In this document: in pieces, positions 1 through 37,127 of the stretch
Layout: each line of letters starts with the position of its first letter
Position numbering within the stretch: the first letter of the stretch is position 1
Assembly (NCBI GenBank): GCA_027484125.1
Contig: JAIXUI010000130.1
Location: 1 to 37,127 of the forward strand
Source: Bacteroidota bacterium
GTDB lineage: Bacteria > Bacteroidota > Bacteroidia > UBA7662 > JAIXUI01
DNA: 37,127 nucleotides
Reading direction: 5' to 3'
Position numbers and translations under genes: made by a program
Notes under the pieces: generated by a model
Database searches by the model: none
Seen by the model: only the letters and a program-made list of their open reading frames with translations
What the model was told of the DNA's origin: nothing

Positions 1-108
1 CCTTCAGATTCCGCTTCACAACGGACACCCTTGCTCTTGGCTAACGGTAAGTACTGCAACTCCCGCTCGGGACTTCCACCCTAGAGCTGATACACATGCC
101 TGACGCAC
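1..108 (-). mobile_element. Group IIC intron, 5' end (partial, runs out of window)
   Basis: Read on the minus strand from base 108, the sequence starts GTGCGTCAGGCATG and continues with CTAGGGTGGAAGTCCC, GTTAGCC, GCAAGGGTGTCCGT and GGAATCTGAAGG. From memory these blocks match, in order, the start of domain I of the Oceanobacillus iheyensis group IIC intron and its relatives. GTGCG is the usual 5' intron terminus (GUGYG). Only about 108 bases of domain I lie in the window; the rest of the ribozyme and any reverse transcriptase ORF would lie to the left. The 5' splice site falls directly after the T-tract of the gdh terminator, the known insertion preference of IIC introns. Confidence is high for group II intron and good for subclass IIC. 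Confidence 0.85.
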
Positions 109-111
109 ATA

Positions 112-144
112 AAAAAGCCCATGATTTTCATCATGGGCCTTTTT
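112..144 (-). terminator. Rho-independent terminator of the glutamate dehydrogenase gene
   Basis: A 9-bp stem (117-125 paired with 130-138, GCCCATGAT on one arm) with a 4-base loop is followed on the minus strand by a run of six T (116-111). It lies 18 bases beyond the gdh stop codon. The T-run ends two bases before the group II intron 5' boundary, so this terminator also appears to be the intron's target hairpin. Confidence 0.9.
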
Positions 145-161
145 GTGATTAACAGTTTAGC

Positions 162-1436
162 TTAGAAGCCACCGCGTAGGCGGGTAGTATTCGCTACTTT
201 ATCGATAGCCACGATGTATGCGGCAATGCGGAGCGATACATTGTGTTGCTGAGCGGTGTTGTACACATTCTCAAACGCTTCTTTCATGTTTCGGTCAGCA
301 CGGCGATTAACACGCTCCTCGGTCCAGTAGTAGCCGAGGCGGTTTTGCACCCACTCGAAGTAAGAAACGGTTACACCACCCGCGTTTGCGAGGATGTCAG
401 GAACCACCACAATGCCTTTGTTGTGGAGAATATCGTCGGCATCTGCTGAAGTAGGGCCATTTGCACCTTCCACGATGAGTTTCGCTTTGATTTGAGCTGC
501 ATTAGAAGCCGTAATTTGGTCTTCCATGGCAGCAGGCACTAAAACATCCACATCCAAAGTAAGGAGTTCTTCGTTGGTGATGGAAGTGGTGTTGGGGAAA
601 CCTGCGAGTGTTCCACCGTTGCTGTCGCGGTAAGCGATGGCCTCGCTGATGTTGATGCCGTTTTCGTTGTAGTAGCCACCGGTCACATCGGAGATGGCCA
701 GCACTTTAAGACCTTGTTGCTCGAGCAACTTAGCGGAGATAGAGCCCACGTTTCCGAAACCTTGCACGGCGCAGGTGCATTTAAACGGATTCAAACCCAT
801 TTTCAACATGGCAGAGCGGGCTGAAACCATTACGCCACGGCCTGTGGCTTCCACACGGCCTTTAGAACCACCCAAAACGAGCGGTTTGCCGGTAACAACT
901 GCAGGAGAAGAATAGCCTACGAGTTTGCTGTACTGATCCATGAACCAAGCCATTTCTTGAGGGCCTGTACCCATATCGGGAGCAGGAATATCCTTTTCAG
1001 GACCGAACACTTCGCTCAAAGCGCGAACGTACTGGCGGGTTAAGCGCTCCAATTCGCCTTTCGACATACTTCTTGGATCGCATTTAATTCCACCTTTTCC
1101 ACCACCAAAAGGGATGTTGGAAACGGCGCACTTCCATGTCATCCAGGCAGCCAGGGCTTTTACTTCATCCAAGTGAACGTCCATGCTATAGCGAATTCCA
1201 CCTTTAGCAGGGCCAAGTTGGTTGTTATGAATTACGCGATATCCTTCAAAAACTTGAATTTGACCATTGTCCATGGTAACCGGAAGGGCTACAATCACCT
1301 GTTTTACAGGGGTTTTCAAGACATTGTACAACTGGTCGTCCAGATTGAGTAGGCGAGCGGCCATATCAAATCGGGACATCATGGAGTCAAACGGGTTGCC
1401 GGAAGGCTTGATGACAGAATTGTTTTGGTCTGGCAT
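162..1436 (-). CDS. gdhA: Glu/Leu/Phe/Val dehydrogenase (glutamate dehydrogenase)
   Basis: Cytosolic enzyme for reversible NAD(P)-dependent oxidative deamination of glutamate to 2-oxoglutarate and ammonia. The 424-aa length fits the RocG/GudB-type hexameric family. Visible motifs are GPAKGGIR (residues 75-82), the catalytic-lysine motif PFGGGKGG (K114), PDMGT with the catalytic Asp (D154), and the Rossmann loop GFGNVG (226-231). The ATG at 1436 is preceded on the minus strand by TAACTTTT, seven bases upstream and one base off the Bacteroidetes -7 box. The gene is transcribed singly, is divergent from the penicillin acylase gene and ends in a strong terminator. Glutamate specificity is inferred from family; a leucine or valine dehydrogenase would normally be shorter (about 360 aa). 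Cofactor preference cannot be read from the sequence. Confidence 0.93.
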   Translation of the reverse strand: MPDQNNSVIKPSGNPFDSMMSRFDMAARLLNLDDQLYNVLKTPVKQVIVALPVTMDNGQIQVFEGYRVIHNNQLGPAKGGIRYSMDVHLDEVKALAAWMTWKCAVSNIPFGGGKGGIKCDPRSMSKGELERLTRQYVRALSEVFGPEKDIPAPDMGTGPQEMAWFMDQYSKLVGYSSPAVVTGKPLVLGGSKGRVEATGRGVMVSARSAMLKMGLNPFKCTCAVQGFGNVGSISAKLLEQQGLKVLAISDVTGGYYNENGINISEAIAYRDSNGGTLAGFPNTTSITNEELLTLDVDVLVPAAMEDQITASNAAQIKAKLIVEGANGPTSADADDILHNKGIVVVPDILANAGGVTVSYFEWVQNRLGYYWTEERVNRRADRNMKEAFENVYNTAQQHNVSLRIAAYIVAIDKVANTTRLRGGF

Positions 1437-1536
1437 GATGCTTAAAAGTTAAACTGATGTGAATTGCGCGGTGAAGTTAAAGAAAGCCAATGAGCATAAA
1501 GCGATACTTTGTGAGAACCTTGTTTTATCTTGTAGA

Positions 1537-3885
1537 ATGATGGTAAAAAAGCTGCTCTTCAGCCTGCTTGCGATTTTACTTTGGGCGGTTTTGCTCATGC
1601 GTATTGGGGATAAACCACGAATGGGAAAGCTCATGCTCTACACCACTTCGCCTTTGCAAGCCGGAAAAGGATTTGATAACGCGAAAAAGTTCAAGGCCGG
1701 AGTTTGGGGAAGCTTAAGCATTGGTTACGACACCCTCGGAGTGCCGTTTATTTTCGCTAAGTCTGATACCGCGCTCGACTTTGGTATGGGCTACGTACAT
1801 GCCCGCGACCGGATGTTTCAGGTTGAGATGATACGTCGTACGGTGAGTGGGCGATTATCCGAAGTTGCCGGCCCAAAAGCACTAAGCTTGGATTTGTTTT
1901 GGCGCAAATTTGGGTTCGAAAGAAAAGCTAAACAGTGGTTTGAAGAAGTAAAACAATTGTATCCGGAGCAAGCAGCGCGTTTAGAAGCGTACGCCGAAGG
2001 CTATAACCACTACTTAAGCACGATGCCTTACCAGGAGTTACCGGCAGAGTTTCATCTTTTAGATATGGCTCCCGGCCAGATGCATCCCGGCGACTGCTAT
2101 TTACTGATTCGCTATATGGATTTCATGCTGAATTATGCAGAAAACAGGCTGAAGCACAGTGAGCTACAAAGCCTCATCGGCGACAGCTTATACCAGTTTT
2201 ATTATCCGGGCATCACCAAAGACGCATTCCCTATGTATCAGGGATTAGCACCAAGACCAGAAACCTGGCAATCGCTACTAAATACCCATAGCCCCCATAC
2301 CCAAGCACGCGCCACCGGATTATTCCCTCATGCGAAAACAGAGCAAGACGCTGCCTCTTCGTTAGGTTCCAACAACTGGGTAGTAGCGGGCTCGAAGAGC
2401 ACCTCAGGATTCCCGATTTTATGCAACGACACCCATCTGGGCATTACTTTACCACCGGTTTGGTATGAAGTGCACCGCAAAAGCAATAGCGGAAAAGTAC
2501 ATGGCCTCAGCATTCCCGGCGCACCATTTATCATTTCCGGCTTCAATGATTCTGTTGCTTGGGGGATTACCAACGCCACTTGGGATTTAGTTCAGTTTTA
2601 TGCGTTAGAAACACGAGGAGCCAACCAGTATGTACTCGATGGCAAAACCGTTGAATATCAATCCAGATACGATACCATTGAAGTAAGAGGGGAAAAGCCT
2701 CAATACTGCCATTTCAAAGAATCTGCATTCGGCATCCTCGACACCTTCGATGGAAAATGGTTGGCAGTAGATTGGGTAGGGATGCGCAATTCTCACGAGG
2801 AAGTAGCCTTTGCGAATCTTATGAAAGCAACCAACCTTGGTGAAATGAAATCGGCCTTGCAACACTTTCATCAACCAGCTCAAAATTTTGTATTGGCGGA
2901 TGCTTCAGGCAATATCGGCATGATGACCTGCGGCTTGGCTTCGCTTCCATCCAAACCAGTTCGAGGAATTATTCAAGCGAAGAATAGCTCCGATAAAATC
3001 CCCTTTATTCCATTACAGTCGATTATTCAACAAACCAATCCTTCCGTTGGCTATCTGGCCTCCGCCAACCAGCATCAAGTGAAAGGTCCGTTAGCCGACT
3101 TGATTTCACTCAGATATGAATCACCGGCGCGAGGACGAAGGATTCACCAATTGTTAGAAAGTAAACCGCAATTGTCACCCAAAGACATGATGCACCTACA
3201 AGGCGACATTGTGGACAGCGAATGGAATATTTTGAAAGCGCCCCTATTGCGCGCTTTGCCAACAGACCTTCAGGAAAAGTTAAAAGATTGGGATGGACGC
3301 TGCGACACCAACAGCGTTGCTGCCACCCTGTTTTATGCGTTTAAACTGAATTTACCACGTGTTGTTGGGCAATTACTACATCCCAAAACGACCTATTACC
3401 CACAGGATGTACACCTTTTTCATCTACTAGAAAAACAAAAAAGCTTACCCGTTGCTAAAGGGCGAATTTCAACGGACAGCTTGATACGATTAACATGGGA
3501 CAGTGCAAAAGCTGAATTGGCACAAAAACTTGGCGACCAACTCAATACTTGGAAGTATGGCCGCTACCATCGATTTGTGGTGAATCACATTGCTAAGCTA
3601 GCTCCATTTTCCTTGCCGGAAGTACCTGCCAACGGCAACAACCGCACGGTAAACGTTTCATCGAGAATGCCGGCCTCACATGGTGCTTCCATGCGAACCA
3701 TCATTGCACTTTCCCCCAAAGGGCCCAAAGCCTGGATGTTGGTGAGTGGTGGCCAAAGCGGCCGCATCAACAGCCGCCACTATGCTGATCAAGTTGACGA
3801 CTATCACGCTGTACGTTACCACGAGGTTCGATATCCGGACGAGTTCAATCCAAAAGTATATTCTACCACCATTCAGTTCCAATGA
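1537..3885 (+). CDS. Penicillin acylase family protein (Ntn hydrolase)
   Basis: Member of the penicillin/cephalosporin/AHL acylase family, amide hydrolases that self-cleave into two chains. From the ATG at 1537 the protein has 782 residues. An N-terminal hydrophobic segment (KKLLFSLLAILLWAVLLM) acts as signal or anchor, so the product should be exported. The alpha-chain motif GYVHARDRMFQ is near residue 85. The mature beta-chain would start at Ser in GSNNWVV (about residue 278), the autocatalytic nucleophile. A longer reading frame opens at 1459, but its first 26 residues look unlike a signal peptide, so 1537 (or the adjacent ATG at 1540) is preferred. The substrate is unknown; beta-lactam, acyl-homoserine lactone or other N-acyl amides are all possible. 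The stop overlaps the next gene by four bases (ATGA), indicating a two-gene operon. Confidence 0.88.
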   Translation: MMVKKLLFSLLAILLWAVLLMRIGDKPRMGKLMLYTTSPLQAGKGFDNAKKFKAGVWGSLSIGYDTLGVPFIFAKSDTALDFGMGYVHARDRMFQVEMIRRTVSGRLSEVAGPKALSLDLFWRKFGFERKAKQWFEEVKQLYPEQAARLEAYAEGYNHYLSTMPYQELPAEFHLLDMAPGQMHPGDCYLLIRYMDFMLNYAENRLKHSELQSLIGDSLYQFYYPGITKDAFPMYQGLAPRPETWQSLLNTHSPHTQARATGLFPHAKTEQDAASSLGSNNWVVAGSKSTSGFPILCNDTHLGITLPPVWYEVHRKSNSGKVHGLSIPGAPFIISGFNDSVAWGITNATWDLVQFYALETRGANQYVLDGKTVEYQSRYDTIEVRGEKPQYCHFKESAFGILDTFDGKWLAVDWVGMRNSHEEVAFANLMKATNLGEMKSALQHFHQPAQNFVLADASGNIGMMTCGLASLPSKPVRGIIQAKNSSDKIPFIPLQSIIQQTNPSVGYLASANQHQVKGPLADLISLRYESPARGRRIHQLLESKPQLSPKDMMHLQGDIVDSEWNILKAPLLRALPTDLQEKLKDWDGRCDTNSVAATLFYAFKLNLPRVVGQLLHPKTTYYPQDVHLFHLLEKQKSLPVAKGRISTDSLIRLTWDSAKAELAQKLGDQLNTWKYGRYHRFVVNHIAKLAPFSLPEVPANGNNRTVNVSSRMPASHGASMRTIIALSPKGPKAWMLVSGGQSGRINSRHYADQVDDYHAVRYHEVRYPDEFNPKVYSTTIQFQ

Positions 3886-5937: not shown

Positions 5938-6963
5938 GCCTGAATTCCATCTTTTCAGCGCCTTGTCCATTATTTTAAACCAAATTGGCGGAATTAAGGC
6001 CGGGAAAAAGGCACTGGCGTAGCCCAATGGTTGCTTGGGACTATCGGCATGGCTTCTCAATTGATGAAAAGGTCTCGAAGCGCGGTAATGGTGATCGGCA
6101 TGGCGACTCAAATCAAAAAGAAAAAAACGGCTGATGACTTTATCGCTTTGCCAGGAATGTGCTGCCGTTACCTTCTCGTTTTCCTGCCTGGAGAGGCCAT
6201 AATGTTCGATATAATTGGTGTATTCGAGCAATAAACAAGCGAAAACACCTTGAACAAACAGCGCCAATGCGAGAGCCGGAATCCAAGCTGCAATCAGTAG
6301 AAGGAAAACGCCCCAACTCACTTGCATGCGTACCACATAATTAGACCAGCCCCAGGATAAATGACCAGCGGTTCGAAGTCGCAGTGCTTCAAGCTTGTAT
6401 GAAGCGGAAATTTGTCCTGCAATAGAACGACCAATAAAACGGTAGATGCTCTCCCCTCTTTTTGCGGAAGCACTATCTAATGAGGTGGCCACATATTTAT
6501 GATGAATCTTCAGATGGTCGATGTAGAAATAGCTATTGCCCACCGACCAAAGAATGATTTGACCAAGCAAGCGCCATCGAGAGGAAACCCTATGTATGAG
6601 CTCATGCGCGAGGACAATCCCTAAGGAACCGGAACATAAACCAGTAGATAACGCTGCTGAAAAAAGCCAAGAATCGGCAATTGCGCCACTCAATATTCCA
6701 TAAATGAGACTAAACCAGGCAATAAAATGCCCTAGCCATGCGGACATTAACAATCCACTTCCGGATTCTTGCTTCAAGGGCAGTGGAGCTTCTTGATTAT
6801 CAGGAACCACCAATTCCAAAATCCCTAGAAAACCCAATGTATAGGCCAAGTTGAGCAAAGTCCAGGCACCTCCCCAACTATTGCCTATAACTACCGCAAG
6901 TACCGGGGTAAGCGCGAAACTGTAGCGAAACAGATACCTAAACTCTGACATGACTCGCTCCAT
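5929..6963 (-). CDS. AlkB-type alkane 1-monooxygenase / fatty acid desaturase superfamily protein
   Basis: Integral-membrane di-iron enzyme of about 344 aa. All the histidine clusters expected of AlkB hydroxylases are present: AHELIHR (about residue 120), [12 protein letters not shown] (about 149-160), NYIEHYGL (about 250-257) and [18 protein letters not shown] (about 286-303). Six or so hydrophobic segments surround them. The NYIEHYGL motif favours AlkB-like terminal hydroxylation over ordinary acyl-lipid desaturation. No rubredoxin or rubredoxin reductase gene is nearby, so the electron donor must be encoded elsewhere. Possible starts are GTG 6969, ATG 6963 and ATG 6951; 6963 is chosen without strong evidence. 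The substrate (n-alkane, fatty acid or other lipid) is not determinable. Confidence 0.85.
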
Positions 6964-10974: not shown

Positions 10975-12636
10975 TCAAGACAAACCTACAATCTTTCCAT
11001 CTACCACATCAATGCCTAATGCAGCCGGTTGTTTAGGCAGGCCTGGCATTCGCATGATGTCGCCTGCAACCGCTACGATAAACCCTGCACCGGCATTCAC
11101 CAAAAGCTGGCTGAAAGTGATGGTAAAATCGCTGGCAACGCCCACTTTAGAGGCGTCATCGCTGAAGGAGTACTGGGTTTTAGCGATACAGATAGGAAGA
11201 TGACCAAAGCCTTCTTTTTCCAACTTCTTGAGTTGTTGTTTGGCTTTTGCGGTAAAGTCAATGGCTTTTCCGCCGTACACCCCTTGAACTACTTTGAGTA
11301 GCTTGGTAGCGATATCGTCCTCTAGTTCATAGGTAAATTTGAGCGGTAGTGCTTCACCCTCTTCAATGGTTTGAAGCACTACAGCAGCCAACTCGGTTGC
11401 GCCCGCTCCCCCTTTGGTAAATCCTTCGCATAGGGCAAATGGCGCTTTTCTTTCTTCGCACCAAGCGCGAACCAGCGCAATTTCTTCTTCCGTATCGAAG
11501 TGAAAACGATTGAAGGCTATCACTACCTTCTGCCCGAAACCTCTTAGAATATGAAGGTGACGGTCGAGGTTGCGCAAGCCGTTGGTTAAAGCCTGCGAAT
11601 TGGGCTGCTGAATTAATTTTTCATCACAACCCCCGTGTAGTTTGAGGGCTTGGGTGGTGGCTACGAGTACACTTACGGCAGGCTCAAGTCCTGCTTGACG
11701 GCATTTGATATCGAAGAATTTCTCTGCGCCTAAATCGGCTCCAAAACCAGCTTCAGTCACTACGTAATCGCCCAAAGCGAGGGCTGTTTTGGTAGCCATC
11801 ACAGAATTACAACCATGAGCAATGTTGGCAAACGGACCTCCATGTACGAATGCGGGTGTATGCTCGGTAGTTTGAACAAGATTCGGTTTGATAGCGTGAA
11901 GCAATAATGCAGTCAGGGCTCCATCAAACCCCAAATCTCTCACATATACAGGCTTTTGTTCATAAGAATAGCCTACTAAAATATTTCCGAGTCGCGTTTT
12001 CAAATCCTCGAGCCCGTTACTCAAGCAAAGGATGGCCATAATCTCAGACGCCGGAGTTATGTCGAAGCCTGTTTCGGTTGGAATGCCATTGTTCGAGCCT
12101 TGAAGACCGGTGAGCACATAACGCAATGAACGGTCGTTGACATCGAGCACCCGTCTCCAAAGCACTTGTTTTAAGGCAGTAGGCTTACCCTGATTCAGGT
12201 ACTGGTAATTATCTACCAAGGCAGCCAAGGTGTTGTTGGCAGAAGTGATGGCGTGAAAATCGCCGGTAAAATGCAGGTTAATATCTTCCATAGGAAGCAC
12301 CTGGCTGTATCCACCTCCGGCAGCGCCGCCTTTCATCCCGAAACAAGGACCGAGTGAAGGCTCTCGCAAGGCCACAATGGCATTTTTGCCTAACTGCTGC
12401 AAGCCCAGACTTAACCCCACCGAGGTGGTGGTTTTACCTACACCCGCTTTGTTGGGGGTGATGGCGGTAACCAGTATGAGTTTGCCCTTAGCAGGTCTGG
12501 AAGCTATTTCCTCGCTGACTTTGGCTTTGTCGTAGCCAAAAGGCATCAGCTCCTCCGGCTTCAAGCCCAGACTTGCTGCAATTTCATGAATAGGCTTTAG
12601 CTGAATGCTGTGGGCAATCTCGATGTCTGATTTCAT
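10975..12636 (-). CDS. fhs: Formate--tetrahydrofolate ligase
   Basis: ATP-dependent synthesis of 10-formyl-THF from formate and THF, feeding one-carbon pools for purine synthesis. The 553-aa length is normal. The P-loop-type motif TPNKAGVGKTTT spans residues 60-71. The blocks REPSLGPCFGMKGGAAGGG and NLHFTGDFHAITSANN are hallmark family sequences. The ATG overlaps the stop of the upstream acyltransferase gene by four bases, so it is the last gene of the CpeT-like/PlsC/Fhs cluster. There is no obvious terminator before the convergent DUF3050 gene. Confidence 0.97.
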   Translation of the reverse strand: MKSDIEIAHSIQLKPIHEIAASLGLKPEELMPFGYDKAKVSEEIASRPAKGKLILVTAITPNKAGVGKTTTSVGLSLGLQQLGKNAIVALREPSLGPCFGMKGGAAGGGYSQVLPMEDINLHFTGDFHAITSANNTLAALVDNYQYLNQGKPTALKQVLWRRVLDVNDRSLRYVLTGLQGSNNGIPTETGFDITPASEIMAILCLSNGLEDLKTRLGNILVGYSYEQKPVYVRDLGFDGALTALLLHAIKPNLVQTTEHTPAFVHGGPFANIAHGCNSVMATKTALALGDYVVTEAGFGADLGAEKFFDIKCRQAGLEPAVSVLVATTQALKLHGGCDEKLIQQPNSQALTNGLRNLDRHLHILRGFGQKVVIAFNRFHFDTEEEIALVRAWCEERKAPFALCEGFTKGGAGATELAAVVLQTIEEGEALPLKFTYELEDDIATKLLKVVQGVYGGKAIDFTAKAKQQLKKLEKEGFGHLPICIAKTQYSFSDDASKVGVASDFTITFSQLLVNAGAGFIVAVAGDIMRMPGLPKQPAALGIDVVDGKIVGLS

Positions 12637-13391
12637 TTTGTTTGGTAATGCTTGAATTTAAAGCGGTCACTTTGTTCAATGCCATCCATGACTTGCTCCA
12701 GAATATCTTCCGGGCTATCGTCGTAATTGAGGACAAGTGGCGCTTTGATGGTGATGGAAAGTTGAGTTTTGCGTTTTTTAAAGCGCAGTCCTTTTTTGTC
12801 GAAAGCTCTTCGGAATCCGTTGATGACCACCGGAACTACAATGGGCTTTTCTTCTTTGATGAGTAAGGCAGTTCCTTTTCTGCCTGGCGCCCACGGCTTG
12901 GTGGTTCCCTGCGGGAAAGTGATGACCCAACCGTCCTGCAAAGCAAGTTTGATGTTGTTAACCTCCTGAAAATCGACCTCACGTTCTACATCAGTACCGT
13001 TTTTTCGCCAGGTGCGCTTAACTGTTACAGCTCCGGCCAACGCCATAAGTTTAGGCAGAAGGCCACTGTGTTTCATGGTTTCTTCGGCTGCCACAAAACA
13101 AGTGTTGGTGCGAAGCGAAAGCAAGTACAGAGGGTTGATTAACCGTCCTTTAAAGCCCCATTTATGAGAGCCAAAGACGTGGTACATCGCAATTACGTCG
13201 GTGTAATACGTTTGGTGATTAGATACGAAAAGCACCCCGGTATCAGGCAAAGCATCGAGGTGTTCTACCCCTTGAACCTTCAGTTTGTTGGTCCAATTGA
13301 GACCTGGCCATGTGATAAACCCCGCCCAAGTGCAAACGATGCTTCTTAGCCAATAAGGCTTGCCAAAAGGGTCTTTTCTAAAGTACCTCAC
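12633..13391 (-). CDS. 1-acyl-sn-glycerol-3-phosphate acyltransferase family protein (PlsC-type)
   Basis: A 252-aa PlsC-superfamily acyltransferase, probably membrane-associated, acting in phospholipid or aminolipid synthesis. The motif region SNHQTYYTD (H59, D65) has five residues between His and Asp instead of the usual four. Motif III appears as FPQGTTKPWAPGRKG (159-173). The start is GTG at 13391, one base after the stop of the CpeT-like gene. The stop overlaps fhs (ATGA). The acyl acceptor is not determinable; lysophosphatidate is the default for the family, lyso-ornithine or other lysolipids are alternatives. Confidence 0.87.
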   Translation of the reverse strand: MRYFRKDPFGKPYWLRSIVCTWAGFITWPGLNWTNKLKVQGVEHLDALPDTGVLFVSNHQTYYTDVIAMYHVFGSHKWGFKGRLINPLYLLSLRTNTCFVAAEETMKHSGLLPKLMALAGAVTVKRTWRKNGTDVEREVDFQEVNNIKLALQDGWVITFPQGTTKPWAPGRKGTALLIKEEKPIVVPVVINGFRRAFDKKGLRFKKRKTQLSITIKAPLVLNYDDSPEDILEQVMDGIEQSDRFKFKHYQTK

Positions 13392-13392
13392 C

Positions 13393-14037
13393 TCATTTTT
13401 TTCTATTCAGTTCGCGTTTGAACTGATAACCCCCGTTTAATGGCCCCCAAATAACCTTGTTATCGCTGTCGAATCCATTTTCCAGCCATACCACTTTATT
13501 TTCAAAAACCTGAAAATCCTGAAGGATGTAAGAAGCTCTTCTTGACCCGGATTTACAATCGGTTCCACTGGTGTTGCCTTGGTATTTCTGTTCGGTTTTG
13601 CGGGTAAAGATTACCGCGCATTCTTCCACCATGGTAAGTTCATCAGGACGAAGGTTCGCAAATGGCTTTTCCTTTGACAATTCACCTTCGTAGTCTTTGA
13701 TGTTAGAAATGGTATAGATGGTGAGCTCCATTTGCTTGTCATCCAAGTCAGAAAGTTTGTAAAATTTCTGTCCAACAACCGCCTGAGTTCTGGAATCCTT
13801 CCACTCTGCATACATCCAAATGCCATCTGTCACCAAGTTTTCCCAAATCACTTCTTGGCGCATTTCCAGCGGAGCAATCAGAGAATCTCGTTTATGGTGG
13901 TCTTTGGAATTAAACTGTCCACTCATCCATTCGGAGAGTAAGCGCAAGTTTTTGGACCCTTTAGAAGCGGGGCCGGCAAGGGCGGAGGAGCCTAAAAATC
14001 CGGCGAGGAGGAGGCAGGCAAAAGTGAATTTTCTCAT
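13393..14037 (-). CDS. CpeT/CpcT-family secreted protein
   Basis: The 214-aa protein begins with a clear signal peptide (MRKFTFACLLLAGFLGSSALAG), which supports the ATG at 14037 over one 24 bases upstream. The body matches the CpeT/CpcT family: LSEWMSGQFNSKDH near the start, VVGQKFYKLSD, then CAVIFTRKTEQKYQGNTSG, DCKSGSRRASY and DNKVIWGPLNGGYQFKR. In cyanobacteria these proteins attach bilins to phycobiliproteins, and the fold is a small beta-barrel. Here the protein is exported and no bilin genes are present, so a different ligand-binding role is likely. It is the first gene of a tight cluster with the PlsC-type gene and fhs. Confidence 0.85.
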   Translation of the reverse strand: MRKFTFACLLLAGFLGSSALAGPASKGSKNLRLLSEWMSGQFNSKDHHKRDSLIAPLEMRQEVIWENLVTDGIWMYAEWKDSRTQAVVGQKFYKLSDLDDKQMELTIYTISNIKDYEGELSKEKPFANLRPDELTMVEECAVIFTRKTEQKYQGNTSGTDCKSGSRRASYILQDFQVFENKVVWLENGFDSDNKVIWGPLNGGYQFKRELNRKK

Positions 14038-36225: not shown

Positions 36226-36233
36226 GGCATCTA

Positions 36234-36255
36234 CTCCGTGAAACGGAGCATTTTT
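36234..36255 (+). terminator. Short rho-independent terminator after cdsA
   Basis: A 6-bp stem (CTCCGT, 36234-36239, with ACGGAG, 36243-36248), a 3-base loop, then CA and five T. It starts nine bases after the cdsA stop codon. The stem is short, so termination strength is uncertain. Confidence 0.65.
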
Positions 36256-36517
36256 ACCTCAATCTCCAAACGCATTAAGCCATCATCACTTGTTTCAAAG
36301 CGCAAGGGTAAAAGTGGTAAGGATTACTCATGCTGGCACTCAGCAGAATAACTCAAATATTGAATGAATGGCTGCAATAGCTAATTATGCAAAAAGCAGC
36401 AGCACCTATTTTTTAGCAAGAATTTATCCGGCTTCAAATCAGCCAATTTTCTATGTCAATATTAAAATTGGTGCTAAAAACTTCATTTTCGGGATAAAAA
36501 ACACGATTAATACTTCC
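36256..36517. other. AT-rich spacer between cdsA and the RhuM-family gene
   Basis: No gene, RNA or repeat was recognised. The second half (from about 36350) is clearly richer in A and T than the flanking operons, which is compatible with acquired DNA or a promoter region. No TTG-N17-23-TAnnTTTG promoter was found. Confidence 0.5.
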
Positions 36518-36547
36518 TCTGATAAAACCTAAATTGGTTCTATCAGA
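36518..36547 (+). promoter_or_regulatory. Inverted repeat just before the RhuM-family start codon
   Basis: TCTGATAAAACC (36518-36529) and GGTTCTATCAGA (36536-36547) form a 12-bp inverted repeat with one mismatch around a 6-base centre, TAAATT. It ends 13 bases before the ATG. The centre plus GG reads TAAATTGG, one mismatch from a -7 box, so an operator overlapping a promoter is possible. An mRNA hairpin is the alternative. Confidence 0.5.
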
Positions 36548-36560
36548 ACATTTATTGATC

Positions 36561-37127
36561 ATGAAAAATGAAATCATCCTTTACCAACCCGATGGATTAT
36601 CTGAACACATTGAGGTAAGGTTGGACACAGTCGCTGAAACGCTATGGCTTACCCAAGAGCAAATAGCGCATCTCTTCGGCAGAGACAGGACCGTTATTTC
36701 AAAACATCTGAGTAAAATTTTTCAAGAAGCAGAATTAGAAGAGAAGGTGGTATGTGCATTTTTTGCACATACCACTCAACATGGAGCTATAAAAGGAAAA
36801 AGCCAAGTTAAACCTGTTAAGCATTTCAACCTGGATGCTATTTTATCTGTCGGATATAGGGTCAATTCAAAAAAAGGGACTCAATTCCGAATTTGGGCAA
36901 ATCGAGTATTGAAAGACTACCTGCTTAAAGGCTTTGCACTCAACAACCGGATGAATCGGGTGGAAGACCAAGTTCAAACAATCGCGGATCAAGTCAATCA
37001 AATTGAACTCTTCATCAGCACCCACCAGCTCCCCACCCAAGGCGTGTTCTTCAACGGCCAAGTATTCGACGCTTACGAACTCGCTTCACGCATCATCCGC
37101 TCCGCTCAAAAAACCATTATCCTCATC
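36561..37127 (+). CDS. RhuM-family protein (partial, cut by window end)
   Basis: An open frame of 189 codons starts at ATG 36561 and runs off the window. Residues 1-125 match the RhuM virulence-protein family: WLTQEQIAHLFGRDRTVISK (helix-turn-helix-like), VVCAFFAHTT, then FNLDAILSVGYRVNSKKGTQ and FRIWANRVLKDYLLKGFALN. A short coiled-coil-like linker follows (VEDQVQTIADQVNQIELF). A second conserved block, GVFFNGQVFDAYELASRIIR, then begins; it is seen in Bacteroidetes RhuM/ORF6N-type proteins with an extra C-terminal domain. RhuM was named from Salmonella pathogenicity island 3, its biochemical role is unknown, and homologues are common in mobile islands. Two inverted repeats lie at and inside its 5' end. 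Confidence 0.85.
   Translation, partial: MKNEIILYQPDGLSEHIEVRLDTVAETLWLTQEQIAHLFGRDRTVISKHLSKIFQEAELEEKVVCAFFAHTTQHGAIKGKSQVKPVKHFNLDAILSVGYRVNSKKGTQFRIWANRVLKDYLLKGFALNNRMNRVEDQVQTIADQVNQIELFISTHQLPTQGVFFNGQVFDAYELASRIIRSAQKTIILI
36747..36775. repeat. Perfect inverted repeat inside the RhuM-family coding region
   Basis: GTGGTATGTGCA (36747-36758) and TGCACATACCAC (36764-36775) are perfect 12-bp reverse complements around TTTTT. On mRNA this is a strong hairpin about 190 bases into the gene. It encodes VVCAFFAHTT, a conserved part of the family, so codon constraint may explain part of it. Confidence 0.75.

Follow-up and report, generated by a model that had tools for sequence, protein, structure and literature searches.

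The gdh locus

The window analysed here, a stretch of 37,127 nucleotides, is contig C51 of a 3.33-Mb, 167-contig Bacteroidota genome, and its base 1 is a contig edge that lies inside a repeat. Toward that edge the minus strand holds, in order, gdh, a hairpin with a T-run, the dinucleotide AT and the sequence GTGCGTCAGGCATGTG..., which runs off the contig at base 1. The gdh gene (162..1436, minus strand), recognized as an open reading frame with the domains PF00208 and PF02812, encodes a glutamate dehydrogenase of 424 amino acids, and its terminator is the one used by the intron described below. This intrinsic terminator (111..144, minus strand) is a near-perfect hairpin with a T-run, regarded as the insertion target from its fold and the background frequency of such structures; the hairpin reads directly from the sequence at 144-111, with the T-run at 116-111, and the 45 nt preceding the intron junction fold with −21.3 kcal/mol. 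The AT at 110-109 (109..110, minus strand) gives AU, the last two 5′ exon bases between T-run and intron, after which the first 108 nt of the group IIC intron, i.e., the start of domain I (1..108, minus strand), begin with GTGCG at 108-104, the remainder lying beyond the contig edge. The original prediction had a group IIC intron starting at base 108 on the minus strand, with two bases separating it from the T-run of the gdh terminator, and both the boundary, to the base, and the spacing proved correct. Its description of conserved domain I blocks was fair, but had to be limited to the first part of domain I (D1), which is what 108 nt can hold.

An Rfam search with the 108 bases alone returned no group II match, because the D1 model RF02001 begins near intron base 84. 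In window positions 1-3000 no other Rfam family reached its gathering score, and the matches to Thr_leader, trpB and TEG147 at the window edge, far below their gathering scores, reflected only the terminator hairpin. At the opposite end of the window (36228-37127), the right edge lies inside an open frame that resembles RhuM-type proteins, as judged by eye only.

A repeated intron start behind terminators

Since the contig of the window ends at base 1, sister copies elsewhere in the genome were used for the checks. The first 108 nt of the intron are present at seven places (contigs C51, C7, C64, C126, C5, C107, and C156), never farther than about 310 bases from a contig end, and are identical in six of them, with a single substitution in C5. 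The upstream flanks are all different and unrelated, and the shared sequence starts at the same GTGCG each time; the junction TTTTTTAT|GTGCG of the window is common to the copies on C7 and C64.

A strong hairpin with T-run precedes the intron at 6/7 of these 5′ junctions, with folding energies of −21 to −27 kcal/mol and the last base pair 0-2 nt before the intron, as expected from the earlier claim that IIC introns target terminator hairpins. The exception is C126, where a weak 7-bp hairpin (−4.5 kcal/mol) ends 8 nt before the intron. By comparison, a hairpin with T-run of this kind, defined as a 45-nt upstream fold of ≤ −18 kcal/mol that ends within 9 nt and is accompanied by at least seven T in the last 12 nt, was found at 19 of 36,938 sampled window positions (0.05%). 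Given 6/7 junctions against this background, the terminator hairpin at the gdh junction is not there by chance, and terminator-linked insertion is a property of the whole intron family in this genome.

The full-length intron and its protein

The longest 5′ end, on C156, carries 298 nt of intron, and its overlap with the start of C8 is exactly 119 bp. Joined, the two contigs give an intron of 1,945 nt from GTGCG to CTCGAT, a join that depends on a 119-bp overlap within a repeat, and positions 1..108 (minus strand) of the window are 100% identical to its first 108 nt. The covariance matches to group II domains come from these sister copies, the 108 nt of the window showing none: D1 on C156 matches RF02001 with 145.4 bits, and C8 matches RF01998, a further domain I-IV model, with 54.2 bits and RF00029 (domain V) with 45 bits. 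The anticipated domain V, class C reverse transcriptase and AY 3′ end were thus all located, each in sister copies, which match the group II families as foreseen.

Intron positions 415-1866 encode a protein of 483 amino acids with a reverse transcriptase domain (RVT_1, PF00078), in which YADD is kept, and a GIIM maturase domain (PF08388); it matches TIGR04416 with 395 bits. No Pfam domain beyond these two, and hence no endonuclease domain, was found in it. Its closest solved relative is the GsI-IIC reverse transcriptase, with 414 bits vs 117 for LtrA, and its sequence marks it as a class C protein that combines reverse transcriptase and maturase without endonuclease. Domain V (D5) reads AACCGCCGUG, in which CGC, present as AACCGCCGUGUACCGAACGGUACGCACGGUGGU, stands in place of the canonical AGC triad; a CGC triad in D5 is linked to group IIC. 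D6 folds with a bulged A. The boundaries of group II introns are 5′ GUGYG and 3′ AY, and here we found GTGCG at window positions 108-104 and a CGAT 3′ end in six sister copies. The assignment to group IIC follows from the D1 and domain V matches, the class C protein, the CGC triad and the bulged-A D6.

As for exon recognition, the first 3′ exon base is a constant T, compatible with an A at EBS3. A search of the intron for an EBS1 partner of the T-rich 5′ exon led to no assignment; the candidate GUAAAG, near intron base 213, could pair with TTTTAT but was rejected because the Rfam D1 structure has it in a stem. Directly after the 3′ end of the C8 copy lies a terminator-like hairpin in a 5′ leader (AATCGGC...GCCGATTTTTT, L026:1767-1810), followed immediately by the ATG of a likely typA (by eye).

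Relatives and the empty site

Four of 60 genomes, own genome included, had a protein match at 1e-60, and the proteins of the other three (G004, G027, and G050) are 42-44% identical to the 483-aa protein, which shares no more than about 50% identity with any relative from the genomes and plasmids searched. No genome of the same family was among the relatives searched, and a protein-pattern scan of genome contigs with the intron protein confirmed no relatives. The single match in G004, a member of the same order, is a complete relative within one contig (L046:948-2848) that shows a terminator, then TTTTTTTTAT|GTGTG, an RF02001 match of 138 bits, the protein, RF00029, and CTACTCGAT|T. Like the intron studied here it stands behind a terminator and has a nearly identical D5-D6, whereas its protein is 44% identical and its 5′ start is GTGTG rather than GTGCG. 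This intron independently supports the model joined from C156 and C8.

Among 100 gdh loci of relatives, a terminator-like hairpin was present behind gdh in 37 and an intron-like start in none. We also tried to pair 5′ and 3′ flanks by synteny; the proteins of eight 3′ flanks found no match in the 100 gdh loci, and a search of the same loci from the window side returned only one weak response-regulator match. No intron-free strain was found, and the empty site could not be recovered from these loci because gene order is not conserved and the neighbours are unrelated.

Interpretation of the copy behind gdh

We put the probability at roughly 96% that positions 1..108 (minus strand) are the 5′ end of a multi-copy group IIC (bacterial class C) intron that was reverse-spliced behind the gdh terminator. 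That these bases instead belong to another structured RNA or to the end of an insertion sequence merely resembling domain I would accord with the lack of an Rfam group II match on the 108 bases themselves, but the same sequence runs on C156 into the 145-bit group II D1 and on C8 into the reverse transcriptase and domain V, and the absence of any other Rfam family at gathering score in positions 1-3000 adds to making this reading highly improbable. Far less remote, although still unlikely, is that the window copy is a dead 5′ fragment, left by later deletion after a IIC intron had inserted. It could be truncated, as degraded 5′ fragments do occur on contig C167 (L017), namely an isolated 5′ end that follows a terminator (12724-12782) and a mini copy with an internal deletion, also behind a terminator, its 5′ end joined to D5/D6 (about 13640-13880), and the seven 5′ ends of the intron family compare with only six 3′ ends. 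Against this, the window copy agrees with intact-looking copies at all 108 nt, in contrast to the C167 remnants, which are diverged (82-88%). Furthermore, a 119-bp overlap is common to C156 and C8, to C51 and C7, and to C81 and C89, which indicates that contigs were broken at repeat branch points, and C51 breaks exactly at the start of the 119-bp repeat shared with C7, as expected for a repeat that continues. A continuing copy behind gdh is therefore favoured, and we infer that it extends as an intact intron. The two diverged 5′ remnants on C167 likewise stand behind strong terminators.

Mechanism and known systems

Introns of group IIC have no endonuclease, and the DNA of intrinsic terminators serves as their insertion site (PMC4424553, PMC8919778); insertion behind an intrinsic terminator or an attC site characterizes the group. 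Exon recognition via the terminator stem-loop together with IBS-EBS elements, IEP-dependent lariat splicing and retrohoming assays into a terminator target have been described (PMC7161350). As read from sequence, the anatomy found here matches this published insertion mechanism: the intron RNA with its reverse transcriptase/maturase would have reverse-spliced into the DNA just behind the stem of the gdh terminator, and the reverse transcriptase would then have copied the inserted RNA into DNA. The host gene would be left unharmed, because the site lies behind the transcription stop.

The introns B.h.I1, O.i.I1, and GsI-IIC insert after intrinsic terminators (Robart et al. 2007, cited in PMC4424553 and PMC8919778) and have in common with the present intron the GUGYG...AY ends, the CGC triad in D5, a class C protein without endonuclease and insertion directly behind a terminator hairpin; the host differs in belonging to a Bacteroidota lineage. 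The kind of element and its insertion at terminators are thus already known, and the intron itself is a new member of group IIC, providing a well-supported terminator-targeted case from a little-sampled Bacteroidota lineage.

ORF-less copies

Six 3′ ends of this intron family were found (C8, C27, C30, C81, C89, and C25), each reading CGAT, then T, then diverging. Only the one on C8 is associated with a protein gene, and the whole assembly contains a single reverse transcriptase gene. On C81 and C89 a perfect hairpin, GAGCTGGTG-TACTT-CACCAGCTC, lies upstream of D5; C30 begins inside the same hairpin end, and on C27 the hairpin contains a single mismatch in a sequence that otherwise equals that of C8 (CACCAACTCAAATTATTC). 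A short domain IV hairpin hence replaces the protein gene in at least three copies and probably in four, "ORF-less" referring here to domain IV alone, as domains I-III of C81, C89, C30, and C27 fall outside the assembly. The missing 5′ parts of these copies are presumably a short collapsed repeat. In the simplest reading, the ORF was deleted from a C8-like intron and the hairpin mismatch was later repaired in C81, C89, and C30.

The short domain IV hairpins and the single reverse transcriptase gene suggest that the ORF-less copies moved in trans, most likely spreading by means of the one encoded protein. There is about an even chance that most copies, perhaps including that of the window, are non-autonomous ORF-less IIC introns of ~0.5 kb that outnumber their helper and take their protein from the single coding copy. 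ORF-less bacterial group II introns served in trans have been described that likewise carry domain IV as a short hairpin and share the genome with one related protein-coding copy (PMC4424553). Such introns are rare in bacteria (PMC4424553), whereas here the ORF-less copies seem to be more numerous than the coding copy. This set is the sole part of the findings above routine interest and, if confirmed, would offer a natural system in which to study how a class C protein mobilizes small RNAs in trans.

Other group II sequences in the genome

Two further contigs, C50 (L027:42-117) and C104 (L028:42-117), each carry the 3′ end of a group II intron of a second kind, with an AGC triad, an RF00029 score of 60.3 bits and the end CCCGAT|T; the assembly lacks its interior and whatever protein gene it may have. 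It was considered for the role of the missing 3′ partner and rejected on account of the AGC triad in its D5 and its different sequence.

Contig C167 (L017) also contains an internal/3′ piece of a degraded IIC remnant (6571-6714). On this contig only, the palindrome TGCCACAGCCTTGTGGCA occurs seven times with a 56-bp period, in two clusters (L017:6829-6958 and 12492-12677) that each adjoin a degraded IIC remnant.
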